Source of the DNA: Dehalogenimonas sp. 4OHTPN
Lineage (GTDB): Bacteria > Chloroflexota > Dehalococcoidia > Dehalococcoidales > Dehalococcoidaceae
Direction of reading: 5' to 3'
Length of the DNA stretch: 64,000 nucleotides
Assembly: GCF_040448695.1 (NCBI RefSeq)
Contig: NZ_CP159307.1
Location: forward strand, 806,001-870,000
Shown: positions 45,125 through 60,824 of the stretch, piece by piece
Layout of the letters: every line of letters begins with the position of its first letter
How positions within the stretch are numbered: position 1 is the first letter of the stretch
The notes under the pieces: model-generated
What the model was told of the DNA's origin: nothing
What the model saw: the letters and a program-made list of their open reading frames with translations, nothing else
The model's database searches: none
Position numbers and translations under genes: made by a program

Positions 45125-46687
45125 GTGAGCAGGTTTCATTCAACACTCAGTCGCAGGGATTTCATGAAAGGCTTAGGTCTTGTCGGCGCCGCCTCCGCGG
45201 TGGCGCCAGCTTTCCACGACATCGATGAGCTATCCGCTGCCCCCAATAACACCCGGAAGCGAGCCTGGTGGGTAAAAGAAGTGGATCACCCAACGGTGGA
45301 TATTGACTGGCAGATGATGGCCCGGCATCACGGCTTTCACAGCACCCAGTCCGCCGCCATCGTCGCCCGGTACTTCGGTTTGTCGGATTACAATGCTCAA
45401 ACCCTGCCCAGCACGACCGAACGATTAAAGAATAACGAGCCCGGATACCAGCTCCGCGATGTCGCCTTTTCCTCGGCGGCTGGCACCTGGGAAGGTCCGC
45501 TGGGTTTCGGGTTCGGTTCTTGGCGGGTTACCGGCGGTCCTTCATCAAACAAAGCATATTTGGGGTATCAACGCGTTTCAACGCCTGAGCAGTTGGGCGT
45601 CCCGAAGTGGACCGGCTCCGCCGACGAGGCGGCCAAAATGCTTCGTTCTGCCATGATCGCCTACGGCGCCTCCGATGTGTCTTTCGGTGAACTTCACGAC
45701 GATCACCTGAAACTGGTCGGCACCCATGGCGACAATATCTCGACCGCCTTCTACCCGCCGAAATTCCCCCCGCCGGACACTGTTATCAAGCCCCAGGTAT
45801 TCGAAGATGTACCGGTCGGCTATGTAGATGAAAAGACCGGCAAGCACGTGCTGCCGAGCAAGGTGCCCCTATATATCGTCACCTGGTCCATGCCCATGCC
45901 TCAGGAAATGGCCAAAACGGCTCATTCTCAACTCATGGGCGCCGCCAATACCAGCCGCTATCGCCGCGACGAGCACGTAACCTACTGCACCCTGGAATTC
46001 TTGCGGGGTCTCGGTTATCACGGCTACAGCGACACCAACTACCGCGCCATCCCTACCGGCGCCGACGCGGTGCTTCAAGGCCTGGCCGAGAACGGCCGTC
46101 ACACCATTATGGCCCTCAGCCCGGAATTCGGCGCCTGGTGCGGCTTCTTCCACCTGATCACCGACCTGCCGCTGGCGCCCAGCAAACCCATTGACGCCGG
46201 TATGTGGAATTTCTGCCACAGCTGCGGCCAGTGCGCCAACGCCTGCCCCTCGAACTCTATCGAGCATAAAGGCGACCGGGAGCCTTCCTATGAACCTTAC
46301 CCGTCATCCATCACGCCGAAGGATCCGGCCCTGCCGGGCCTGGGGTGGGACAAGCCGACCCCGGGCGAATCTGACTACTATAAAACCGGGCGGAAGACGT
46401 ACTGGACCGATATGATCACCTGCTGGGGATACCGGCGAACGGTCGATAACTGTTTGCGCTGCTTCCCGTCCTGCGTCTTCAACAGCCCACGAGGTGCGAT
46501 GGTGCACGACATCGTGAAAGCCACCGCGGCCAATATCGGTATTTTCAACAGCTTCTTCGCCTCAATGCATGAGGCGTTCGGCTACGGGGTGGTCGAAGGC
46601 GAAGAAAAAGAATTGTGGTGGGATATGTCGCTGCCGGCATACAACATCAACAGCATCGTCGGCGCCCAGCACGGCGGATACAAGTAA
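45125..46687 (+). CDS. rdhA: Reductive dehalogenase catalytic subunit (RdhA), copy 2
   Basis: A 520-residue RdhA with the twin-arginine signal SRRDFMKGLGLVG (residues 9-21). Both Fe-S motifs are complete: CHSCGQCANACP (C364, C367, C370, C374), and C433 with C443, C446 and C450 as the spaced second motif. It is a paralogue of the first copy, with long shared stretches such as HSTQSAA and NEPGY. The GTG start has GGAGGG close upstream. It is flanked by terminators and has no rdhB gene, so the membrane anchor must come from elsewhere. Substrate unknown. Confidence 0.95.
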   Translation: MSRFHSTLSRRDFMKGLGLVGAASAVAPAFHDIDELSAAPNNTRKRAWWVKEVDHPTVDIDWQMMARHHGFHSTQSAAIVARYFGLSDYNAQTLPSTTERLKNNEPGYQLRDVAFSSAAGTWEGPLGFGFGSWRVTGGPSSNKAYLGYQRVSTPEQLGVPKWTGSADEAAKMLRSAMIAYGASDVSFGELHDDHLKLVGTHGDNISTAFYPPKFPPPDTVIKPQVFEDVPVGYVDEKTGKHVLPSKVPLYIVTWSMPMPQEMAKTAHSQLMGAANTSRYRRDEHVTYCTLEFLRGLGYHGYSDTNYRAIPTGADAVLQGLAENGRHTIMALSPEFGAWCGFFHLITDLPLAPSKPIDAGMWNFCHSCGQCANACPSNSIEHKGDREPSYEPYPSSITPKDPALPGLGWDKPTPGESDYYKTGRKTYWTDMITCWGYRRTVDNCLRCFPSCVFNSPRGAMVHDIVKATAANIGIFNSFFASMHEAFGYGVVEGEEKELWWDMSLPAYNINSIVGAQHGGYK

Positions 46688-49847: not shown

Positions 49848-49920
49848 GCGGGTGTAACTCAGCTGGCAGAGTGCCTGCTTCCCAAGCAGGTTGTCGCGAG
49901 TTCGAATCTCGTCACCCGCT
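49848..49920 (+). tRNA. tRNA-Gly (CCC), no encoded CCA
   Basis: The acceptor stem GCGGGTG/CACCCGC, the anticodon stem CCTGC/GCAGG with loop TTCCCAA and the T arm are all intact. The anticodon is CCC (49881-49883). The 3' end is T followed by TTT, so CCA must be added enzymatically, unlike the other two tRNAs in the window. A possible promoter is TTTACA/17/TTAAAA at 49809-49837. Confidence 0.93.
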
Positions 49921-51300
49921 TTTTCTTTTTTCTGAGACAATCCCCAGCCAGTAGCTGACCAATTCCTTCAGCCTGCGGTAAAACTCCCGCGGCCTGCTGA
50001 TCACCGAGATAAAATACACCGGATTATGCCGGAGCATGAACCTCACCCGGCGCGCGGCGTAAGATTTGCGGTAATTCGCCAGCGTGCTGTTCAACAACTC
50101 GCGGGATACCTGGCTGAAACTCCGCCGCATGCAGTCGGCTGCAAAATCAGACCAGCTTTCCAGGGTTTCCGGTATCTGGATGAGAGATTCACGGCGGCAA
50201 TACTCGTAAAGGTCGGTTCCGGGGTAGGGAATGAACTTGAGTAACAGGCAGGGCGGATAATCCAGCCGGCGAATCAGGTCGAGGGTGGCCTTAAAATCAG
50301 GTTCGGTCTCACCGGGGTAGTCGTAGTTAACGTATAGCGTGGGGACGATGCGGCGGCGAACCAGCCGATGAAATGTCCGCTCCACCGCGCTGATGTCGCC
50401 CTTGCCGATGAAGTCCCGGAGCCTCGGACTGCCGCTGCCGACATCCAGCAACACCGAGGTACAGCCGGCTTTGGCCATCAATCGGGCCGTCTCGTCATCA
50501 AGCTCCCGGGAAACAGGCAATCTCCAGGGCAATTTCAGGCCGAGGCCGATTAACGCCTGACAGAACCGGCGCAGGTTGTCCGGGTTTCCGGTTAAACCCA
50601 CTCCGGACAGATAGACGCTTTTCACACCGTGGTTCCGGGCGAGGTCCTGCATTTGTCGGGCGAGGCGGGATGGAGTCACAGTCTTACCGGCATCACCGGC
50701 GGAGTCGCTGAAAAAAGTACAGGCGTATAGCCCGCCGCGGGCGGTATTTAAGTTGACGTCAGGATAGCGCCGGACATCGGCCAAATGCCATGCCGGGTCA
50801 GGTAAACCATCAGGATCGATATTAGCATCGGGTGGGTTGACCGCCGTCGCGGCTGAAGTGCCTTTAAACCCCAATCCGCGTATCGCTGAAAAATCTTTCC
50901 CTTGTTCGATGCATGAAGCGAGTTCATTGACCGGCTTCTCGGCGCACCCGATGACGATAAAATCAACAAATTCTTCGTGCAGGGTTTGATTCGGGAAAAC
51001 GGTAGGATGGCAGCCGATCCAGACAATCTTGACGTTGACGATGGCCTTTTTCAGCGATTGAGATCTGGCTGCGGCGTCGGCTATTTCCGGCCCTGTGCCG
51101 ACATAAAAAACCGCGATCCCAGGATTGAATGCGGCTATCTTGTCATGGTCAGGATCGGGGTTGACGTTATAATCGGCGCATGTGATTTGGTGGCCGCTTC
51201 TTTCTAAGGTCCCGGCGACTGACAGGAGTTCATCTGGGAAATCAGCATACCCGGGCGTACCATGGTAAGCTCGGGATGGAATAATCAGAGCGATTCTCAT
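49912..51300 (-). CDS. B12-domain radical-SAM-like protein lacking the cluster cysteines
   Basis: A 462-residue paralogue of the B12-binding radical SAM proteins upstream. The N-terminal cobalamin-type Rossmann region (FNPGIAVFYVGTGPEIADAA; IVWIGCHPTVFPNQTL) is present. At the cluster site it reads RGGLYACTFFSD: only Cys194 remains of the CxxxCxxC triplet (Gly190 and Phe197 replace the others). It should not bind the usual [4Fe-4S] cluster or cleave SAM. The reading frame is open and well kept, so it may be a structural partner. The last codons lie inside the 3' end of the convergent tRNA-Gly gene. Last gene of the cluster. Confidence 0.88.
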   Translation of the reverse strand: MRIALIIPSRAYHGTPGYADFPDELLSVAGTLERSGHQITCADYNVNPDPDHDKIAAFNPGIAVFYVGTGPEIADAAARSQSLKKAIVNVKIVWIGCHPTVFPNQTLHEEFVDFIVIGCAEKPVNELASCIEQGKDFSAIRGLGFKGTSAATAVNPPDANIDPDGLPDPAWHLADVRRYPDVNLNTARGGLYACTFFSDSAGDAGKTVTPSRLARQMQDLARNHGVKSVYLSGVGLTGNPDNLRRFCQALIGLGLKLPWRLPVSRELDDETARLMAKAGCTSVLLDVGSGSPRLRDFIGKGDISAVERTFHRLVRRRIVPTLYVNYDYPGETEPDFKATLDLIRRLDYPPCLLLKFIPYPGTDLYEYCRRESLIQIPETLESWSDFAADCMRRSFSQVSRELLNSTLANYRKSYAARRVRFMLRHNPVYFISVISRPREFYRRLKELVSYWLGIVSEKRKSG

Positions 51301-51338
51301 CGGTTGGCTGCAGGATCCCTGCTAATAAAAATATTACC

Positions 51339-52646
51339 CTAGCTATTGTCAGCTTGAGTATCGCTATGATTGAATGCTGAGCAGGTAACAAACTGGTCGG
51401 AGAGAATTTCTGTCGCTTGGCTCGGACTGATTTGAACTTTGACCGGGATACCCTCGATGAAAGCTCCGACTCGGCGCATGAACTCGGGATTACGGGCTCG
51501 GGCATTAGCAAAGTAGGCGTAGCGGAATGCCGCATCCCAATCGCCCAACTGCGAAGCTGCTACAGCGGCGGCGAACGCAGCCATGTCGGTTTTTTCAAGC
51601 AGGCTGGCGCAATTGAACATCTCAACCGCAGCCTGAGGTGTCCCGGCTTCGATAGCCCGGTACATTCGGACTTCAAGGCTCGTTTTTTGTTCTTCATCCG
51701 GATCAGGATGCCAGGCCAGGCAGCCGCCATTGCAACGGCCTTTTTTAAAATGGACGCATTCGATGCAGGCGGAATAGCAGCCACCATGCATCATTGTTTG
51801 ATCAAGGTGTTTTCGAAACCATTCTTCGAGGGCTTCCTCTGATGGATAATCCATTAGTTTGATCCTGGAAGCTTTGGACAGGGCGAAGCAGCGGATTACC
51901 TCCAGTTCCGGGGTGACATCCAGTACGGGGTCGCACGGGCCCATGCCGGAAGTGGTTTCGGGATGAAACTGCCTTACCCAGGCTAACTGGGAGTCCGAGA
52001 AAAAACATAGCGGCAAAGGGCAATCAAGCGTACCTTCGACACCAAGTCTGGCTGCTTCCTGTAGCATTGAAAAACAGCGGTCTGACAGGAGGCCGAAATC
52101 CGTTGCCGGGACGATCTTGGATTCACAGCCTTTAATTGGGTTGGCTACAGTCCAGGTGAAATGTCCCAACCCGAGACGATGCGTTAAGCTCGGAATAAAC
52201 GTTGGGTCGAAATCCAAGCGCCAGACATTAAAACCGATTGATACTTTGAAACCTTTTCGCATCGCGTTTTCGACATTGTTGATGACTTTGGTGAAATGCT
52301 TGGGGTTGCGGTAATCACCTGGCTCATTGACATTGAACACCAAAGCGGCGTCCTCTGGGGATAAATTATCGAGTATGTCCTTGTTAAAAACACCGCCTGT
52401 TAAAATGCGTAGAGACGTTCCGGGGCACTGTTGCCTGAATATTTTTACGATGTCCGGCAGTTTGGGATGCAGGAACGGTTCGCCACCCAGTAAAGACAGG
52501 TAGGGGAGCCGTGAAGCGCGAGCCCATTTGGCGAACAGCCCAATATTATCCATGGAGATCAGTCCCTGCTTTCGGTCTTCCCTTTCGGCTGCTTCGAAGC
52601 AATAGGGACAGGAGTTAGAACATTCCCGAATAAGAACGAGATTCAT
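51339..52646 (-). CDS. Radical SAM enzyme with SPASM/twitch-like C-terminus
   Basis: A 435-residue radical SAM enzyme. The cluster motif is at the very start, ECSNSCPYCFEAA, followed by LSLLGGEPFLHP (the SAM-binding GGE). Further cysteines (GPCDPVLDVTPELEVIRCF, CYSACIECVHFKKGRCNGGC) match auxiliary-cluster SPASM patterns, common in peptide-maturing and other modifying enzymes. A helical tail of about 100 residues (ASLLEKTDMAAFAAAVAASQ) follows. It is separated from the preceding gene by 191 bp with a hairpin. Confidence 0.88.
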   Translation of the reverse strand: MNLVLIRECSNSCPYCFEAAEREDRKQGLISMDNIGLFAKWARASRLPYLSLLGGEPFLHPKLPDIVKIFRQQCPGTSLRILTGGVFNKDILDNLSPEDAALVFNVNEPGDYRNPKHFTKVINNVENAMRKGFKVSIGFNVWRLDFDPTFIPSLTHRLGLGHFTWTVANPIKGCESKIVPATDFGLLSDRCFSMLQEAARLGVEGTLDCPLPLCFFSDSQLAWVRQFHPETTSGMGPCDPVLDVTPELEVIRCFALSKASRIKLMDYPSEEALEEWFRKHLDQTMMHGGCYSACIECVHFKKGRCNGGCLAWHPDPDEEQKTSLEVRMYRAIEAGTPQAAVEMFNCASLLEKTDMAAFAAAVAASQLGDWDAAFRYAYFANARARNPEFMRRVGAFIEGIPVKVQISPSQATEILSDQFVTCSAFNHSDTQADNS

Positions 52647-52750
52647 TTACGGCTCCATCTGATGTATGGGGGTAAACATGTTTAAGCCTCAAATATCCTT
52701 ACATAAAGAACATCATATCACAGGACCAGCTGTATCGAAGCGGTTGTTCT

Positions 52751-52785
52751 CCGCGGACGAATTCAAGGGAAGCGTTCGTCCGCGG
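52751..52785. repeat. Intercistronic hairpin in the radical SAM cluster
   Basis: CCGCGGACGAA (52751-52761) and its complement TTCGTCCGCGG (52775-52785) form an 11-bp perfect stem. It lies in the only long gap of the cluster (52647-52837). No T tract follows on the minus strand, so it may be a processing or stability element. Confidence 0.55.
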
Positions 52786-52837
52786 GGATCCATTTTTCAA
52801 TGTCTTCAAATCGAGAAGCGGCGATCGAGGTTCAGGA

Positions 52838-54328
52838 TTATACGACCGTCTTTGAGTTGCCCGAACGAGACAGCGAGAGGACATCAGGATTGACGAGTTT
52901 CTCCCGCTGCTCTTTAACTACCGTCCGATGGTAATTGTGTACCTGAGCCTGGTACTTCCACAAACCCTGGAGTTCCTTTAAAAACTTCAAGGGATTCTTG
53001 AAGATGATCCAAAAATACGATTTATCGTGTTTCAGTGTGAAGCGGAAACGCTGCATTGCATAGGTCGTCGACCATTTGAGAACCGCTGCTTCAATTATTT
53101 CCTGCGGCACTTCGCAAAGATTAGCCTTGTGACCGTAATATTTGACGTACTCCGGCCACTCTTCAAGGGTGGTGGGGACTTTTATCAGATTGTGTTCGAC
53201 GCAGTAGTCATACATAGCCGACCCGGGGAATGGTACATAGCGATGGAACATGTAGTAAGGTCTGTCCAATTTCTCCGTTAGGAATCTTTGGGTAGTCTCG
53301 AAATCCTCTACGGTTTCGGTCGGCATTCCGTAAAGAATGTACACCGAAGTGCGGATTTTGTATTTGATAAAATTCCAGAAGGTTGCCGCCATTTGCTCTG
53401 CGGTGACATCTTTTTTTATGAACTCCAGCATTCTGGGGCTGCCGCTTTCGATGCCTAAACCGATATCAACGCAACCGCTTTTTGCCATTAATGCTATATC
53501 TGCCTCCGAGAGGTCAGCCCGGGCGTCGCAGCTCCATCTGATCTTGCGCTTGCGGGTGATCAACAAATTGCAGATCTCGCGCAGGCGCTTTCGGTTGAAG
53601 GTGAAGTTGTCCTCATTAAACCGGATATATTTGATTCCATAAGTATTCTGAAGGTGGTCTATCTGTTTGATTATCTTTTGGGCGGAGACCCAACCGGTGT
53701 AGCCTTGATTATATGATTTGTTATAACAAAAAGTGCATTGATTGACGCAGCCACGTGAAGTGTTAAGTCCCGGAGTGGAATATTTTTTAACATCGATTAG
53801 ATGCCATGCAGGATCGGGCAACGCTTCCAGATCCTTGATGAACGGTCGCCGCTCATTTATAACCGGCTGGCCGTTTACTTTGAAGCCCAAGCCCTTGATC
53901 TCTGTTAAGGCCGGCGTTCCCGTTTCTAGGTGCTGCACCAGTTCCAACATGGTGAACTCCCCGGCGCCGACGGCGACGTAATCAATGTATTCCGGAGCTA
54001 CCGTCTGTTCTGGCAGTACGCTGGCATGGACGTCCCCCCAGACGATCTTCACCCCAGGCAAAAGTGCCTGGAATTCTTTCGACAACGAAATCGAACCTTC
54101 CATGTTCGGTCCCGCGATTACTGAAAAACCTATTAGCTGGGGATTAAAAGCTACAAAGTCCTTGGCCTTCCGGAAATCAACGAATCCATCCCAGACTTGA
54201 ACGCTGTGGCCGTGCTGTTCCAGCACCGCCGCTATTGACAACAAGCCGTAGTCAAATGTTGTGTACGCATTGGAATTGTAATACTTGATATAGTCCAGGG
54301 CAGGAGCATTAACCAGGAGTACTCTCAT
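52838..54328 (-). CDS. B12-binding radical SAM protein, paralogue 3
   Basis: A 496-residue class B-type radical SAM protein. The N-terminal cobalamin-binding-like domain includes FNPQLIGFSVIAGPNMEGSI and IVWGDVHASVLPEQTV. The cluster motif is SRGCVNQCTFCYNKSYN, with SAM-site elements IRFNEDNFTFNRKRL and GLGIESGSPRMLEF. A C-terminal extension of about 130 residues is shared with its neighbours. Members of this class methylate or rearrange unreactive carbons. The start MRVLLVNAP at 54328 has GAAAGG upstream; an in-frame start exists nine codons earlier. Closely related to the next gene upstream. Confidence 0.92.
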   Translation of the reverse strand: MRVLLVNAPALDYIKYYNSNAYTTFDYGLLSIAAVLEQHGHSVQVWDGFVDFRKAKDFVAFNPQLIGFSVIAGPNMEGSISLSKEFQALLPGVKIVWGDVHASVLPEQTVAPEYIDYVAVGAGEFTMLELVQHLETGTPALTEIKGLGFKVNGQPVINERRPFIKDLEALPDPAWHLIDVKKYSTPGLNTSRGCVNQCTFCYNKSYNQGYTGWVSAQKIIKQIDHLQNTYGIKYIRFNEDNFTFNRKRLREICNLLITRKRKIRWSCDARADLSEADIALMAKSGCVDIGLGIESGSPRMLEFIKKDVTAEQMAATFWNFIKYKIRTSVYILYGMPTETVEDFETTQRFLTEKLDRPYYMFHRYVPFPGSAMYDYCVEHNLIKVPTTLEEWPEYVKYYGHKANLCEVPQEIIEAAVLKWSTTYAMQRFRFTLKHDKSYFWIIFKNPLKFLKELQGLWKYQAQVHNYHRTVVKEQREKLVNPDVLSLSRSGNSKTVV

Positions 54329-54361
54329 CTCATTTTGCCTTTCTATAACTGGCAAGCATTC

Positions 54362-55840
54362 TCAACGGGCGACGGCGGCAGCCGATTTGGTATATTCGTT
54401 TGCTGATTTGGGAGCCTCGGGCGCCGCCAAAGTCTTTTTAACGACTTTGTAGTAACCGTTCACTTGGATGTGGAACTTGGCGAGATCCCAGAGCTCACGA
54501 AAAAACTTCTTCGGGTCGGTTATGGCTGTCCAAAAGTAAGCTGGGTTATGTTTGAGGGTGAAACGGAACCGCTGCGCCGCGTAGGACATGCGCCACCGGG
54601 CGGCTGCTTCCGCCATAATATCATCCGGCACTTCTGAAATATTTACCTGATTGGAAAAACGCATAAGATAGGGAGGCCACTCCTCGATTCTTTCCGGCAG
54701 ATTTACAAGACCATGATCAACACAGTATTCAAATAAAGCGCTGCCCGGGAAAGGAACGAAGCGGTTATACATGTAGTAAGGATTGTCGAGTCGCTTGAGC
54801 ATTTCATGAGTGGCTCCAAAATCTTCGAGTGTTTCGGTTGGGAAGCCGTACATGATATACACCGATGTTCGGATCTTGTATTTGACCAGGGTCCAAAAAG
54901 TCCTTTCCATCTCGGGGATGGTGATGTCCTTCTGGATAAAATCAAGCATACGCTGGCTGCCGTGTTCCAATCCAAGACCGACGGCAGTACAGCCTGCTCG
55001 TTTCATCAAGGCGACGTCCGATTCTGACAGATCGGCGCGTGAGTCGCACGACCAGCTGATTTTTATTTTACGGTCGATAATCATTCGGCAGAATTCGCGC
55101 AAACGTTTACGGTTAAAGGTGAAATTGTCTTCGTTGAAGCGGACATGTTTCGCCCCGTATTCTTTTTGAACGTGCTGGATCTGTTCGATGATGCGCTCTG
55201 CTGGCAAATAGCCGATATAATCTTTGTTATAGGATTTGTTGTAGCAAAAAGCGCAGCGGTGAGCGCAGCCGCGGGAGGTGTTTAAGCCTATACCTGAGTA
55301 TTTCTTTACGTCCACCAGATGCCAGGCCGGGTCAGGCATGTCTACGAGGTTCCGGATAAATTCACGTTTCTGGTTGAGGACTATTTCACCCTCGCGCCGG
55401 AAAGCAAGTCCTTTGATCTCATCGAGCGCCGGGGTACCGATTCTAAGGTGTTCCAAGAGTTCGAGCATGGTGTATTCGCCGGCACCGATGGCAACAAAGT
55501 CAACGCAGTCCTCAAGCAGTGTTTGGGTTGTCATGATCGATGGATGGACGTTACCCCACACAATCTTTGTTTTCGGCAACAACGATTTAAATTCACGCGA
55601 TTGGATCAGTGATCCTGCCAGGTTTGGTCCCGTTATAACTGAAAAACCTATGACATCAGGATTGAAATCGACGAAGTCCTTCGGTTCACGGTCGTCGACG
55701 TACCCATCATAAATCTGCACCTGGTGGCCGTGGCGTTCGAGGAATGAGGCGATATACAACAGGCCGTTGGGCAGGTTGGTATATGCCTGATAATAATGGC
55801 GGTAGGCTTTATCCGCTGATGTTACGAGCAGGACTTTCAT
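54362..55840 (-). CDS. B12-binding radical SAM protein, paralogue 2
   Basis: A 492-residue protein very similar in order and sequence to paralogue 3. It has FNPDVIGFSVITGPNLAGSL, IVWGNVHPSIMTTQTL, the cluster motif SRGCAHRCAFCYNKSYN, VRFNEDNFTFNRKRL and GLGLEHGSQRMLDFIQKD. Its ATG overlaps the stop of the upstream gene in TGATG, so the two are translationally coupled. The pair with paralogue 3 looks like a tandem duplication kept for different steps or substrates. Confidence 0.92.
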   Translation of the reverse strand: MKVLLVTSADKAYRHYYQAYTNLPNGLLYIASFLERHGHQVQIYDGYVDDREPKDFVDFNPDVIGFSVITGPNLAGSLIQSREFKSLLPKTKIVWGNVHPSIMTTQTLLEDCVDFVAIGAGEYTMLELLEHLRIGTPALDEIKGLAFRREGEIVLNQKREFIRNLVDMPDPAWHLVDVKKYSGIGLNTSRGCAHRCAFCYNKSYNKDYIGYLPAERIIEQIQHVQKEYGAKHVRFNEDNFTFNRKRLREFCRMIIDRKIKISWSCDSRADLSESDVALMKRAGCTAVGLGLEHGSQRMLDFIQKDITIPEMERTFWTLVKYKIRTSVYIMYGFPTETLEDFGATHEMLKRLDNPYYMYNRFVPFPGSALFEYCVDHGLVNLPERIEEWPPYLMRFSNQVNISEVPDDIMAEAAARWRMSYAAQRFRFTLKHNPAYFWTAITDPKKFFRELWDLAKFHIQVNGYYKVVKKTLAAPEAPKSANEYTKSAAAVAR

Positions 55841-57342
55841 CAGGATATCTCTCCCCCTCGGGTAACTTGTTTGGGTTGCAGGCGGGGATTATCCGATCCG
55901 CCGCTGGACCTATTCTTCCGCACAAGCTTGGATAGCCATGACTGAGAGCCGTTGGTCGGATCGAGAATTATATCGATGTAATATTTCCCGAGGTCCCATA
56001 CCGACCGGAAAAATTCACGGGGCCGCTTTACAGCATCTAAGAAAAAGGCGGGATTATGACGGAGCATGAAACGGACCCGGCGTGTAGCATAGCTGCGCCT
56101 GAAATCCGACATCGCTTCATCCATCTTTTGTTGAGGTACTTGGGACAAATTAATTTCGTTGGCGCACTGAATGGGGAAGTTCGCCCACTCTTGAAGTGTC
56201 CGTGGGGTCTTCAATAGCCCGTGTTCGAGGCAGTAATCAAAAAGGACGGTACCCGGGTAAGGCACAAATTTCATATACAGATATGGCGGGGAGTCGAGGC
56301 GCTTCATGAACGCCAGGCTCTCGTTGAAATCCTCAATCGACTCGGTCGGGTACCCGTACATCATGAAAAGGGTGGGAATAATATGATGCTTTACAAGTAG
56401 CCAGAAGCTGGATTCCATCTCTGAGACGGTACCTTTGTTGATGAAGGAGAGCATCTTCTGGCTGCCGGTCTCGATTTCAAAGAGCACGGAGGTGCAACCA
56501 GCCTTTTTCATCAGCCGGACGGTTTCTTCATCAAGAGCGCCTGATACCGGGGCATTCCAAGTGATTTTCCACTTCTTATGGATCACCAACCGGCAAAACT
56601 GATGCAGCCTTTCACGGTTAATAACAAAACGTTCACCGGAAAAATAGATATGCTGGATGCCGTACTCTTCGTGAAGCATCTCCATTTGGGCAACGATCCG
56701 TTCTGCCGAAAGGTCGCACATATTGCCGCCGTAGAATGTGGGATCAGAACAGATGGTGCATTTGAAAGGGCAGCCGCGTGAAGTATTCAAGGTCACATCA
56801 GAATATCTATTAACATCGATAAGATGCCAGGCTGGATCCGGCAGGCTATCCAAATCGGCCATAAAGGGTCGTGGTTCATTGATGGTAATCATGCCGTCGC
56901 TGTTTTTAAAAGCCAGGCCTTTTATAGAAGAGAAATCGGTAGAGTTTTTCTCCAGATGATCTGCAAGTTCGGCAATAGTGAGTTCACCAGGCCCTATCAC
57001 GGCATAATCGGCGCACGATTCCTTTAGCACCTCTGCAGGGTAGGCGCTGGCGTGACGGAAGCCCCAAGCAATCTTTACCCCGGGGATCAGGTTTTTAAAG
57101 TCAGACGACTGAGTTAATGCATCGGTGATATTCGGGCCTGTGGCGACGCAAAAACCTACCAGCTGGGGATTATAATCTAGAAAATCTACCGGGCGCTTTT
57201 TATCGAGGTTGCAATCGACGAGCTTGACCTGATGACCGCGGCTCTCAAGCATACCCCCGATAGACAGCATTTCATCAGGGAACTTGGTATATCCGGGAAT
57301 AGTACCGTAAGACCGGGATGGAATAACAAGAAGGATCCTCAT
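55840..57342 (-). CDS. B12-binding radical SAM protein, paralogue 1
   Basis: A 500-residue protein with a cobalamin-type N-terminal domain (YNPQLVGFCVATGPNITDAL; IAWGFRHASAYPAEVL), cluster motif SRGCPFKCTICSDPTFYGG, and GERFVINRERLHQF in the SAM barrel. Its cluster region is the closest match to the degenerate protein at 49912, so that gene probably derives from this branch. I use the ATG at 57342 (MRILLVIPS); a GTG at 57351 is also possible. It starts 14 bp after the activase-like gene ends. Confidence 0.92.
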   Translation of the reverse strand: MRILLVIPSRSYGTIPGYTKFPDEMLSIGGMLESRGHQVKLVDCNLDKKRPVDFLDYNPQLVGFCVATGPNITDALTQSSDFKNLIPGVKIAWGFRHASAYPAEVLKESCADYAVIGPGELTIAELADHLEKNSTDFSSIKGLAFKNSDGMITINEPRPFMADLDSLPDPAWHLIDVNRYSDVTLNTSRGCPFKCTICSDPTFYGGNMCDLSAERIVAQMEMLHEEYGIQHIYFSGERFVINRERLHQFCRLVIHKKWKITWNAPVSGALDEETVRLMKKAGCTSVLFEIETGSQKMLSFINKGTVSEMESSFWLLVKHHIIPTLFMMYGYPTESIEDFNESLAFMKRLDSPPYLYMKFVPYPGTVLFDYCLEHGLLKTPRTLQEWANFPIQCANEINLSQVPQQKMDEAMSDFRRSYATRRVRFMLRHNPAFFLDAVKRPREFFRSVWDLGKYYIDIILDPTNGSQSWLSKLVRKNRSSGGSDNPRLQPKQVTRGGEIS

Positions 57343-57356
57343 CGTTTTCACTCAAG

Positions 57357-58172
57357 TTAAGCATACACCAGGTGGCGGGATTCCACTGCTGGCGCCAATT
57401 CGGCGGCATCTAGTTCGGCCTCAGTCGGGAAAATGCTTTTCACTCCGAACTCCCGCGGCTCCGAACCTTTGTATGCGTAAACATTATTCAGGTGCTTCGA
57501 AGCTGCCTCCACTGCCCGGTCGACCTCATCTGCCGTCGGTCTTCGCCACGGATTATTTCCAGCTTTGAAATAGGCATCAATCTGGTAGCGGATGTTCTTA
57601 TCAACACTTGCGATGAATTTCGCGATTTGTTCTATCTCCTGATAATCGATGTAGCCTGGAATGAGCACCGTCTCAGCCATCATCGGAACACCTGAGTGGA
57701 ATATTCTGGGGAAGTTTTCCAGGATAGTTTTGTTGGATTCGCCGGTATACTCACGGTGGAGGGTTTCGTTAAAAGCTTTCAACCCGACGGCGACTTTGTC
57801 AAAATGTCTCAGATCAGGCATGACAAAGGCATTGGTCAGGAGTACGTTGGTAGTTCCAAGATGCCTGTGAAGCGCTTCAGCGATGGACGGCATTTGGGGA
57901 TCCAGCGAAGCCTCCTGGCCTTCAAAGAGTACCCACTTAGCTTCCAAACCAACCAGTGTTTCGATGACGTCGTTAAGTGCTATGAACCGTTCCGGAGCCG
58001 CCGCCAGACCCCTGGGTTCCGCCAGGTGCAGGTGCATATTCCGGTCCAGCATGAAGTCATAGACCACCTTCTGGCAGACGCAGCCTTTGCACTTGATATT
58101 GCATCCCCAAAAATGAAGGTAGGCCTGCTTGGTAGATTCAGCAAAAGCGATGTTGTAGACGTTTGTTTGCAT
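57357..58172 (-). CDS. Activase-like radical SAM enzyme
   Basis: A 271-residue radical SAM protein with the cluster motif WGCNIKCKGCVCQK near residue 23 and no B12 domain or SPASM tail. Size and layout resemble glycyl-radical-enzyme activases and small 7-carboxy-type radical enzymes. The SAM-site glycine region is in the diverged form WVLFEGQEASLDPQMPS. AGAGGG precedes the ATG. It is the first radical SAM gene after the structured leader, so it may act first or prime the pathway. No glycyl radical enzyme is in the window. Confidence 0.85.
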   Translation of the reverse strand: MQTNVYNIAFAESTKQAYLHFWGCNIKCKGCVCQKVVYDFMLDRNMHLHLAEPRGLAAAPERFIALNDVIETLVGLEAKWVLFEGQEASLDPQMPSIAEALHRHLGTTNVLLTNAFVMPDLRHFDKVAVGLKAFNETLHREYTGESNKTILENFPRIFHSGVPMMAETVLIPGYIDYQEIEQIAKFIASVDKNIRYQIDAYFKAGNNPWRRPTADEVDRAVEAASKHLNNVYAYKGSEPREFGVKSIFPTEAELDAAELAPAVESRHLVYA

Positions 58173-58196
58173 TATTCCCTCTTATCCAATTAAGTT

Positions 58197-58323
58197 CGGC
58201 AAGCCCGGCGGTGAACCCCGATTACACCCAGGGCTGCCCACGGGAGGGGTTCCACAGTACCTTCCAAGCCGGCTGAGTCGCGCAACCAGCTTTCCCTGGT
58301 TTCCCCCACCGCAGAGCTTGCCG
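58197..58323 (-). ncRNA. Candidate structured leader RNA before the radical SAM genes
   Basis: On the minus strand CGGCAAGC (58323 to 58316) pairs with GCTTGCCG (58204 to 58197), then across a 3x3 loop GCGGTG (58312 to 58307) pairs with CACCGC (58213 to 58208). Inside, AACCAG/CTGGTT (58301 to 58284) and AACCCC/GGGGTT (58251 to 58214) form two further hairpins. All arms are perfect. The element ends 25 bases before the radical SAM start. I cannot match it to a known riboswitch. It could be a ligand sensor, an attenuator or a mobile-RNA remnant. Confidence 0.55.
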
Positions 58324-58340
58324 CGATACCATTCGCTTAT

Positions 58341-58556
58341 TCAGAGCCCACGATTAAACGATAATGAATAGTAATTAGATTCTGACTGGTGGCTGCATTT
58401 TGTCGTCCAGATCCGATCAGCCTGTATGACGCAAGCTGCGTCCAGCGAGGTATAAGCAAACGGCAGTCGCATGACGAAAGGCTTTTCCGGGTCGCCGATT
58501 TCGATAGGTGTATTGGATTTGAGCCTAGAGGTTATGGATGGCTGGACTGTTTTCAT
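58341..58556 (-). CDS. Small unknown ORF, coupled to the ORF before it
   Basis: A 71-residue ORF starting MKTVQPSITSRLKSNTPIEI. It has GAGGAG nine bases before the ATG and its start overlaps the previous stop in ATGA, a strong sign of real, coupled translation. The middle (PEKPFVMRLPFAYTSLDAA) looks protein-like; the end has Cys54 and several Ser/Tyr. No family recognised. It could be a peptide substrate of the downstream enzymes, but nothing proves it. Confidence 0.5.
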   Translation of the reverse strand: MKTVQPSITSRLKSNTPIEIGDPEKPFVMRLPFAYTSLDAACVIQADRIWTTKCSHQSESNYYSLSFNRGL

Positions 58557-58840
58557 GACAACTGACTCCTCGGTTCGGTCGGCCTGATAAGGTCATGAGT
58601 TAGGCTATTGACGCCGGGTTTGAGGCAGACAACCATGCTCCGATGAGGCAACAAAAATCTGTCTCTGACACGCTGGGGTTTTTGTTTCCTGGCCAGCCTG
58701 CAGGCTAAAGCGGCCGCTGATCCAATTGCATGCTCATTAGCATCCCGCAAGGTTTTGGTGAGTCTATTAGCCGATCTTAAGAAAGTCCGATCTTCCTTCC
58801 CATCCTGATATCCACCAACACATTTCGATTTCTTAATCAC
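58553..58840 (-). CDS. Small basic unknown ORF, first gene of the radical SAM locus
   Basis: A 95-residue ORF from a GTG start (IKKSKCVGGYQDGKEDRTF). It is rich in Arg and Lys (RLARKQKPQRVRDRF) and has three Cys. No family recognised and no clear ribosome binding site. It ends in the ATGA overlap with the next small ORF. It lies directly downstream of the TTAACT repeats. Real but unknown is my best reading; a spurious ORF is possible. Confidence 0.4.
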   Translation of the reverse strand: MIKKSKCVGGYQDGKEDRTFLRSANRLTKTLRDANEHAIGSAAALACRLARKQKPQRVRDRFLLPHRSMVVCLKPGVNSLTHDLIRPTEPRSQLS

Positions 58841-58863
58841 GGGTACACTTTACAATGGAAAAG

Positions 58864-58900
58864 CGTTAATTATCAGTTAAGAAGAGTTAAAATGAGTTAA
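58864..58900 (-). promoter_or_regulatory. Four TTAAC direct repeats, candidate OmpR-family box
   Basis: On the minus strand TTAACT occurs three times at exactly 10-bp spacing (58900, 58890 and 58880 downwards), followed by a fourth TTAACG unit 11 bp on. Direct repeats at one helical turn are typical of PhoB/PhoP/OmpR-type regulators; Bacillus PhoP boxes have TTAACA-like units. The adjacent gene encodes such a regulator. Confidence 0.6.
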
Positions 58901-58959
58901 CATGTTGGCAGTCTAAAGCTAAACCAAATAAAAAATCAGTATAAATGCTTAGACAGAAG

Positions 58960-58989
58960 TTGTACTAAAGTACAATAGGTACTAGTACC
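58960..58989. promoter_or_regulatory. Two adjacent palindromes upstream of the radical SAM locus
   Basis: TTGTACTAAAGTACAA (58960-58975) is a perfect 7-bp inverted repeat with a 2-base centre. GGTACTAGTACC (58978-58989) is a perfect 12-bp palindrome 2 bases further on. A minus-strand -10-like TATACT (near 58945) follows at a distance that would put the first palindrome over the -35 position. Likely operators. Confidence 0.55.
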
Positions 58990-59055
58990 ATATTAAGAAA
59001 TAATTATACTTTGGTCGCGGTCCAAAATAACCTGGTGTGGATTCCAACGACCCAT

Positions 59056-59730
59056 TTAGTCAGGCGAAAACATATAACCCTGACCGGGCTTGTTGACGAT
59101 CAATTTAGAGTCGCTTGGGTCAAGCTTTTTTCGAATGTGGTGAATATGGACTCTGAGATCGTCTGCGGTGGCGGCGTGGTGTTCACCCCAGATTTTTACC
59201 GCCAGTGTTTCAGCGCTGACAAACTGTCCGGCTTGTTTTATCAGGGTCTGCATTATCTGTCCCTGTATAGGGGTCAGATGAAACACCTGCTGGCCGTGAT
59301 ACAACTCCGTTAATGTCTTTCCGAAACGCCACAGTCCATGGCTGACTTTAAGGTCCTGATCCCCCTGGTGGCTTCGACGGGTTATCGCCTTGATCCTTGC
59401 CAGAAGCTCCATCTGCCGGAACGGCTTGGTCAAATAGTCGTCGGCCCCAAGCGTCAGAGCCTTCACGACGTCGCGTTCGTCGATTCGGACTGTCAACATG
59501 AGAATGGGAACGTCAGAAAACAGCCTTATGGCTTTAACAATTTCAAAACCATTGGTGTCAGGCAAACCGATATCCAAAATGACCGCATCCGGGGGTTCGC
59601 TCTCAAGCGCATTCATACCTTGTTCACCGGTTACCGCTTTAATGAGTTTGATGTCAGGCCAGCCGAGTTCGAAGGTGAGCTCTACCAGTTCAAGCACATT
59701 TGGGTCATCTTCGATTATCAGTATTTTCAA
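59056..59730 (-). CDS. OmpR/PhoB-family response regulator
   Basis: A 224-residue two-domain regulator. The receiver has E7, D8 and D9, phospho-acceptor D53 (ILDIGLPDTNG), T80 and K102, all intact. The C-terminal winged helix (VFHLTPIQGQIMQTLIKQAG; DDLRVHIHHIRKKLDP) binds DNA, usually as a dimer on direct repeats. It overlaps the kinase gene by 4 bp. It lies just upstream of, and on the same strand as, the radical SAM locus, whose promoter holds four TTAAC repeats. Confidence 0.95.
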   Translation of the reverse strand: MKILIIEDDPNVLELVELTFELGWPDIKLIKAVTGEQGMNALESEPPDAVILDIGLPDTNGFEIVKAIRLFSDVPILMLTVRIDERDVVKALTLGADDYLTKPFRQMELLARIKAITRRSHQGDQDLKVSHGLWRFGKTLTELYHGQQVFHLTPIQGQIMQTLIKQAGQFVSAETLAVKIWGEHHAATADDLRVHIHHIRKKLDPSDSKLIVNKPGQGYMFSPD

Positions 59731-60824
59731 ATTTGAAGCTCCAAGGTGGCGGACATAGCTGGCTCAACTGGCAGAGTGATCTCAAAGCAGCAGCCCCTGG
59801 AATTATCAGTAACCTTCACATCGCCGCCATGTAACTCGATTAGCAGTTTGGACAGGGTTAATTCCAACCCGAGAGTACTGAAATGATCCCGATCCAGTGT
59901 CAATACGGAATAAGGCGCTGAGATAACCGCAGATAGTCGGTCAGGAAAGCTAATGCAGGTAGTGATAATACGAACTATCATCGCCTGGTTAAACAATCCA
60001 ATCGTCAACCGCACCTCCGCGCCGACGCTGCTTCGTTTAATGGCGCATTTAACAAGATGTCCCATGCTTTCACGCAGCCGTCGCCGGTCGCCGGTCACCT
60101 CATAACTACGGTCCGTCGACTCGACGTGGAGGTTTATTCCCTTGTCTGCAGCCTCGGATTGAAGAGATTCAACTACCTGTTGGCATAACTCGCCGAGTTC
60201 TACCTGCTGGTAATCGAGTACCAGCGTTCCCATTTCGCCGCGGATCAACTCGAACAACTCACCGATCCGCGAATTCAACTCTATGGCGCCGAGGTTGATC
60301 TGTTTTGCGAGTCGGGCCGGAGTCCCATCCGGTAGACGGTTGACCAGCATCTCGCTCGCCGCCAGAATCGGAGTCAGGGGATTTTTTAACTCATGGACGG
60401 CGGCTCGAGTGAGGTTTGACTGGCGCTGTCGCCGGTTTTCGTCTGATACAACGGGGCTTTCTGTTGCAAATCCGAAAATATTAACATAATCGTGGTCAGG
60501 GACCGGGACGATTTGGAGTCGATAGGTAATACTGTCAACCTTCTCATGGGACCATCGAGTAGACATGGTCTGAAGAGCGTCCTCAATGAGACGTATATAA
60601 GGTTTGGGCACTGGTCCTCCGAAAGCGCAATCCCACTTTCGGCACAATTCGAGACTTCCTGGATTGGAATAAAGGATAGTCCCATCCTTGGAAGCCCGGA
60701 TTACGGGATTGGGATTTTCTTCGTATATACCCAGTCCATCAATAGGGTTTAGTCCGGTACCCAAAACACCGCCTAGAGATTCAGCTCGGGTGTATTCGCG
60801 GACCAAATCCTCACTCCCCTCCAT
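59727..60824 (-). CDS. Soluble PAS-type sensor histidine kinase with degenerate ATP domain
   Basis: A 365-residue protein with no transmembrane helix. A PAS-like sensor (residues about 30-125) is followed by a HisKA domain with H144 in AAVHELKNPLTPI. The ATPase domain is aberrant: the N-box reads GHLVKCAIKRS, with His256 and Cys260 where two Asn are expected, and the G1 box DxGxG is replaced by TTCIS (288-292). The G2 region LGLELTLSKLLIELHGG is partly kept. It may not bind ATP and could act as a phosphatase, phosphoacceptor or redox switch. Operon with the regulator. Confidence 0.88.
   Translation of the reverse strand: MEGSEDLVREYTRAESLGGVLGTGLNPIDGLGIYEENPNPVIRASKDGTILYSNPGSLELCRKWDCAFGGPVPKPYIRLIEDALQTMSTRWSHEKVDSITYRLQIVPVPDHDYVNIFGFATESPVVSDENRRQRQSNLTRAAVHELKNPLTPILAASEMLVNRLPDGTPARLAKQINLGAIELNSRIGELFELIRGEMGTLVLDYQQVELGELCQQVVESLQSEAADKGINLHVESTDRSYEVTGDRRRLRESMGHLVKCAIKRSSVGAEVRLTIGLFNQAMIVRIITTCISFPDRLSAVISAPYSVLTLDRDHFSTLGLELTLSKLLIELHGGDVKVTDNSRGCCFEITLPVEPAMSATLELQI

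Follow-up and report, generated by a model that had tools for sequence, protein, structure and literature searches.

A six-gene radical SAM locus behind a pseudoknotted leader RNA in Dehalogenimonas, and its probable kinship with reductive dehalogenase operons

The DNA analyzed here (the window) is a stretch of 64,000 nucleotides from Dehalogenimonas sp. 4OHTPN (contig NZ_CP159307.1, positions 806,001 to 870,000), in which six minus-strand genes for radical S-adenosylmethionine (SAM) proteins, at window positions 49912–58172, follow a structured leader RNA. An initial annotation of the window had described such a one-strand set, at coordinates where we found all six genes and with which the Pfam domains agree. 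The first gene 3' of the leader RNA, ACT (58172–57357), encodes a PflA-like radical SAM protein with the motif CNIKCKGC. It is followed by b (57342–55840; CPFKCTIC), c (55840–54362; CAHRCAFC) and d (54328–52838; CVNQCTFC), each combining the B12-binding and Radical_SAM domains of Pfam with CxxxCxxC, and these are the three intact B12-domain radical SAM proteins that had been announced. Gene e (52646–51339; CSNSCPYC) has Radical_SAM as its sole Pfam domain, as does ACT, and carries SPASM-like C-terminal cysteines, while f (51300–49912) has both domains and has lost the cluster motif. Junctions are tight or overlapping, as claimed earlier, between ACT and b (14 nt), b and c (1-nt overlap), c and d (33 nt) and e and f (38 nt), but not between d and e (191 nt). 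The genes are conserved together, an orthologous block being complete in the close relative G007 and present in G004 with a different last gene. Ratios of nonsynonymous to synonymous substitution rates (dN/dS), determined against the G007 block unless G004 is named, are 0.05 for ACT, 0.10 for b, 0.07 for c, 0.03 for d, 0.08 for e and 0.21 for f.

None of the six genes reached an NCBIfam cut-off, all scores lying far below; the nearest models were BchE, ApyD, HpnJ and PhpK for b–d and glycyl radical activases for ACT. Enzymes of the BchE/HpnJ/ApyD/PhpK kind (TIGR02026, TIGR03471, NF050148, TIGR04479) share with the subfamily of b, c and d the order of a B12-binding domain followed by Radical_SAM, and AprD4 (PDB 6fd2) and CysS (PDB 9n1b) resemble b, c and d in domain order and CxxxCxxC. 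The subfamily differs from the former kind in its scores (best 155 of 481 bits), in its linkage to genes for reductive dehalogenases (rdhA), and in lacking a close relative outside the order: a scan of ~85,000 species' genomes, which may omit close kin of the window, yielded nothing that exceeded 31% identity. The sister genus retains only proteins of ~27% identity. Subfamily members number ~10 in the closed 1.75-Mb genome of the window (G000; ~36 rdhA genes), and 14 in G004 (2.07 Mb, ~50 dehalogenases), and drop to two in G001 and G002. No curated pathway model fits the gene set, and a prior description of it was not found in the papers searched for radical SAM genes in Dehalogenimonas, in line with the earlier statement that it matches no known pathway. 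An AlphaFold2 model of c, based solely on the four paralogues of the window, was set aside because of its poor quality (mean pLDDT 59).

Three of the proteins deserve separate comment. In f, which the initial annotation had recognized as a cluster-less paralogue, two of the three CxxxCxxC cysteines are gone (the equivalent stretch reads R-G-G-L-Y-A-C-T-F-F), and the motif 'GLExGS' has likewise lost its conserved E. Because dN/dS is nonetheless 0.21, f is a retained, probably non-catalytic paralogue under purifying selection. The same losses, together with a protein that evolves 2–8x faster than its paralogues and an operon devoid of rdhA, could be read as signs of a decaying rdhA operon whose rdhA has gone, whose f is dying and whose remainder has no present function. 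Against this stand the low dN/dS values of ACT, b, c, d and e (0.03–0.10) and of f, and the preservation of the block in G007 and G004; simple decay was rejected on the low ratios, and we regard the decay scenario as the most improbable of those considered here. For e, the designation as a SPASM-type enzyme is tentative: it relies on conserved C-terminal cysteines (Cys 238, 253, 294, 297, 305, 309), and no SPASM match was obtained in Pfam or NCBIfam. Similarly, ACT is activase-like in its PflA-like sequence (PDB 3can, 3c8f), yet the resemblance to glycyl radical activases such as PflA and YjjW goes no further: a glycyl radical enzyme or NrdD (PF01228, PF13597) is absent from all eight genus genomes, with positive controls, and ACT genes are instead linked to rdhA, nrdJ (class II ribonucleotide reductase) and cbiZ. 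Since the genus has no such partner enzyme, ACT as an ordinary glycyl radical activase was ruled out.

The leader RNA (58191–58332, minus strand; 142 nt) lies between a small open reading frame of 71 aa (smORF71, 58556–58341, minus strand) and ACT. Its predicted fold consists of the closing helix P1, helices P2, P4 and P5, and the pseudoknot P3 (CCAGGG/CCCUGG). The same element was found at other sites in genomes of the genus. In an alignment of 40 sequences (A4), a sequence alignment of hits from a covariance model whose nested structure partly differs and which does not contain P3, 96.6% of cells are paired, 112 cells carry double changes, and such changes occur in 19 of 27 pairs. For the non-nested helix P3, all cells are paired (100%) and five of six pairs show double changes. 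None of 500 shuffles scored as high, and slid controls were far lower. The structured leader mentioned in the initial annotation, where it was listed as a mere detail, is thus strongly confirmed as a strongly covarying RNA family that includes a pseudoknot, and it is the most novel part of the locus. That the signal stems from a DNA palindrome and not from an RNA was ruled out, because such a palindrome cannot give rise to covariation in a non-nested helix. With a conserved, covarying structure 5' of genes on the same strand, the leader has the structural hallmark of a riboswitch class.

Nothing relevant in Rfam 15 matched the leader at gathering or permissive thresholds. Its position before B12-related genes in the genus recalls the cobalamin riboswitch, but no match to RF00174 at gathering score was obtained at the leader, while RF00174 matches occur elsewhere in the same genomes; the cobalamin riboswitch was therefore rejected as its identity. 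A second known element to be weighed is the rdhA motif WRC-34-1, described in PMC11109978 as a candidate cis-regulatory RNA lying directly 5' of rdhA, chiefly in Dehalococcoides. The two are alike in being candidate cis-regulatory, dehalogenase-linked RNAs of the same bacterial family, and they differ as judged by the published description of WRC-34-1 and by a locus test: our second covariance model found no copy upstream of 30 Dehalococcoides rdhA loci, and the leader family has two copies per Dehalococcoides genome. With no fitting Rfam family, nothing at these 30 loci and a P3 covariation that a DNA palindrome would not explain, it appears very improbable that the leader is an already known element.

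Within the genus, the first covariance model gave 27 strong hits, spread over six of the eight genomes; 11 of these copies had served to build the model. They precede nrdJ (14 copies), ACT (8), rdhA (2), a lipoprotein gene followed by rdhA (1), a B12 radical SAM gene (1) and another gene (1), so that 26 of the 27 head operons of nrdJ, ACT, rdhA or B12 radical SAM genes; judged by these neighbours, the RNA looks like part of a B12 regulon in Dehalogenimonas. A divergent copy (32 bits; L040:14234-14353 in G004) also lies immediately before nrdJ. With the second model, 61 of the 156 genomes from the order proved to contain the RNA, at ~150 places and up to 16 times per genome, in part in tandem. 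It also turns up in a few further orders within the class; the first model found no copy in other classes among 400 genomes of the phylum. Elsewhere in the order, the genes that come after it encode peptide ABC binding proteins, molybdenum hydroxylases, molybdenum transport, AOR and corrinoid methyltransferase systems, and in G624 the RNA leads TRAP transporters. Four copies ~5 kb apart, most of them before TRAP-transporter-like operons, are seen in L241 (G624:C4), and two or three tandem copies precede peptide ABC transporter genes in L164 (G140:C162) and L134 (G037:C52). One common cofactor does not account for these transporters, molybdenum enzymes, AOR and methyltransferases outside the genus; a general signal, or ligands that differ between lineages, would.

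The genes themselves also belong to a wider family of operons. With rdhA genes fully mapped by TIGR02486, 12 of 17 B12 radical SAM loci, taken from three genomes, lie within 3 kb of an rdhA; 1.6 would be expected under rotation, and a count of 12 was not attained in any of 5000 rotations. Operons with short gaps recur in the arrangements ACT-rdhA-B12 radical SAM, ACT-B12 radical SAM-rdhA and rdhA-ACT-B12 radical SAM-nrdJ, and the family as a whole mixes ACT, B12 radical SAM, rdhA, nrdJ, a Dph6-like PP-loop gene and sometimes a SPASM-like gene. ACT and B12 radical SAM genes adjoin cbiZ, cbiB and nrdJ as well. In L153 the RNA leads an ACT-cbiZ-ACT-nrdJ array, followed by genes that are cobO- and cbiB-like by sequence; cbiB is confirmed by Pfam in L029. 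None of the 16 RdhA genes directly adjoining a B12 radical SAM gene is accompanied by an RdhB-like reading frame, compared with 5 of 39 other RdhA genes in these loci, a difference that amounts to a trend only. Seen against this background, the six-gene block has, by its gene content, the anatomy of such an operon without the rdhA. Published Dehalogenimonas rdhAB operons have an adjacent two-component system (PMC13390414). The locus is like them in having a two-component system directly upstream, and unlike them in having no rdhA in the operon, with radical SAM genes where rdhA and rdhB would be; the RdhA proteins of its related operons also lack RdhB.

These neighbourhoods bear on a proposal of the initial annotation, namely that the set recalls peptide or natural-product modification. 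Tandem B12 radical SAM enzymes beside a SPASM-like enzyme, distant best models that include ApyD and other C-methyltransferases of ribosomally synthesized and post-translationally modified peptides, and the short, plausibly coding smORF71 as a precursor peptide, here and in G004, would suit a stand-alone pathway of this type. However, the same families occur in rdhA, nrdJ and cbiZ operons without a shared precursor-like reading frame, no NCBIfam cut-off was reached, the set lacks a transporter or protease, and smORF71 has no Pfam or NCBIfam match. Because the families share operons with rdhA, nrdJ and cobamide-salvage genes, and the neighbours common to the family are respiratory and corrinoid genes, the genomic context indicates that the locus is not a stand-alone natural-product cluster; this part of the earlier proposal was not borne out, and we consider such a pathway improbable.

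The rdhA, class II ribonucleotide reductase and cobamide-salvage neighbours direct attention to organohalide respiration and corrinoid metabolism. What is directly seen comprises the genes, their family, its genomic association with rdhA and with cobamide genes, the purifying selection and, by covariation, the RNA structure. On balance, we favor, with somewhat better than even confidence, that the locus is an rdhA-less member of a Dehalogenimonas-specific ACT/B12 radical SAM-rdhA operon family that performs radical chemistry on corrinoid-dependent machinery under the gate of an RNA. Radical modification of corrinoid enzymes or of their cofactor was ranked first because it is the only theme that unites rdhA, nrdJ, cbiZ and cobO/cbiB-like genes with B12-dependent radical enzymes. 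A competing view holds that the enzymes tailor the cofactor, modifying or remodelling the corrin ring or nucleotide loop of the cobamide, with the rdhA neighbours as mere users of the product. It draws on the nearby cbiZ (cobamide remodelling), cbiB and cobO-like genes, on a B12 radical SAM-cbiZ locus (f8) conserved across the genus, and on a weak resemblance to BzaD, a lower-ligand enzyme, although all scores fall far below the BzaD cut-off. Moreover, up to 10–14 paralogues per genome, spread among individual rdhA genes, exceed what a common cofactor pathway would need. We regard cofactor tailoring as possible but rather unlikely, bearing in mind that sequence alone cannot separate it from protein modification. 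One or two B12 radical SAM genes adjoin cbiZ (adenosylcobinamide amidohydrolase), usually without rdhA, at L030:8338-12245 and its equivalents across the genus.

In the favored scenario of RNA-gated radical chemistry, the adjacent two-component system would sense a signal and switch on transcription via an operator of GTTAA repeats. The resulting transcript would bear the pseudoknotted RNA just 5' of the first radical SAM gene. In the folded RNA, the conserved CCCCUCCCG would be held in helices P2 and P5; in the unfolded state, it could base-pair with the ribosome-binding site and thereby shut down translation. Such pairing (CCCUCC to Shine-Dalgarno) is possible for this invariant segment at most sites. 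The enzymes may then act on corrinoid-dependent machinery, most likely by methylation or another modification, with reductive dehalogenases, neighbouring class II ribonucleotide reductases or the cobamide itself as conceivable targets, and f might assist b, c and d without catalytic activity of its own. Several observations weigh against this scenario. The six genes include no rdhA, the nearest lying on the other strand ~3 kb beyond f, and the co-divergence of B12 radical SAM proteins with rdhA within genomes, which in itself speaks for the scenario, is weak (r 0.33, P 0.02). The expansion of the B12 radical SAM genes could also reflect many substrates. Pairing with the Shine-Dalgarno sequence is weak at some sites (e.g. 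L075, L078), and G001 and G002 carry the gene families without the RNA. Outside the genus, in Dehalococcoides and others, the main neighbours of the RNA are peptide ABC/TRAP transporters, molybdenum hydroxylases and others rather than B12 genes, which leaves a B12 ligand hypothetical.

For most Dehalogenimonas rdhA genes, which are without rdhB, a function has yet to be established (PMC4918011, PMC13390414). The presence of a genus-specific radical SAM set beside rdhB-less rdhA offers a testable reason: a step of maturation, or one involving the cofactor, may be missing under heterologous expression. The leader RNA family, for its part, marks energy-metabolism operons in Dehalococcoidia, and identifying its ligand would reveal what these hard-to-culture bacteria sense. 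Taken to its full extent, a proposal that we make only tentatively would be that the RNA is a ligand sensor of a new class, seen to date in Dehalococcoidia only, which gates respiration and uptake operons there. In Dehalogenimonas it would control a previously unreported set of B12 radical SAM and PflA-like enzymes, and these would chemically mature either reductive dehalogenases or the cobamide they use, in operons without the usual RdhB.

Upstream of the leader, the two-component system and operators noted in the initial annotation are both present. The former (59056–60824, minus strand) comprises a response regulator of the OmpR family (59056–59730; Response_reg and Trans_reg_C; dN/dS 0.01) and a histidine kinase (59727–60824; HisKA and HATPase_c; dN/dS 0.17) with no obvious membrane segment and with orthologues at L031 and L037 (same cluster). 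Four GTTAA repeats at 58865, 58876, 58886 and 58896 (58865–58900; spacing 10–11 nt) form a candidate response-regulator operator, and two palindromes (58962–58989) read GTACTAAAGTAC at 58962 and GGTACTAGTACC at 58978, the latter unchanged in G007 and G004. Identity to the G004 orthologue is 66–72% in this promoter region, 30–55% in most of the small-ORF region and 84–92% in the RNA. Of the two coupled small reading frames proposed earlier, smORF95 (58840–58553, minus strand; 95 aa) is probably not a gene, because its dN/dS is 1.03 and no orthologue was found in G004. By contrast, smORF71, which ends just before the leader RNA, plausibly codes for a small protein, given its dN/dS of 0.39 (0.36 against G004) and a 69-aa relative in G004 with the conserved core LPFxYTxxDxAC. 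At L155:1284-1562 and L154:7454-7732, a DUF2795-type small protein likewise ends ~20 nt before the RNA.

Some further features were noted in passing. Several class II (B12-dependent) ribonucleotide reductase paralogues of ~590–605 aa per genome, unusual for one cell, are found at L029, L156, L153, L026 and L027; these paralogues are often located beside rdhA and preceded by the same RNA. At the other end of the operon, a tRNA-Gly(CCC) gene (49848–49920, plus strand) overlaps the 3' end of f by 9 bp. Farther downstream, on the opposite strand, an rdhA (45125–46687) encodes a protein with a Tat signal and two Fe-S motifs, whose PF13486 score of 721.6 bits is the top one in the genome among the matches listed.

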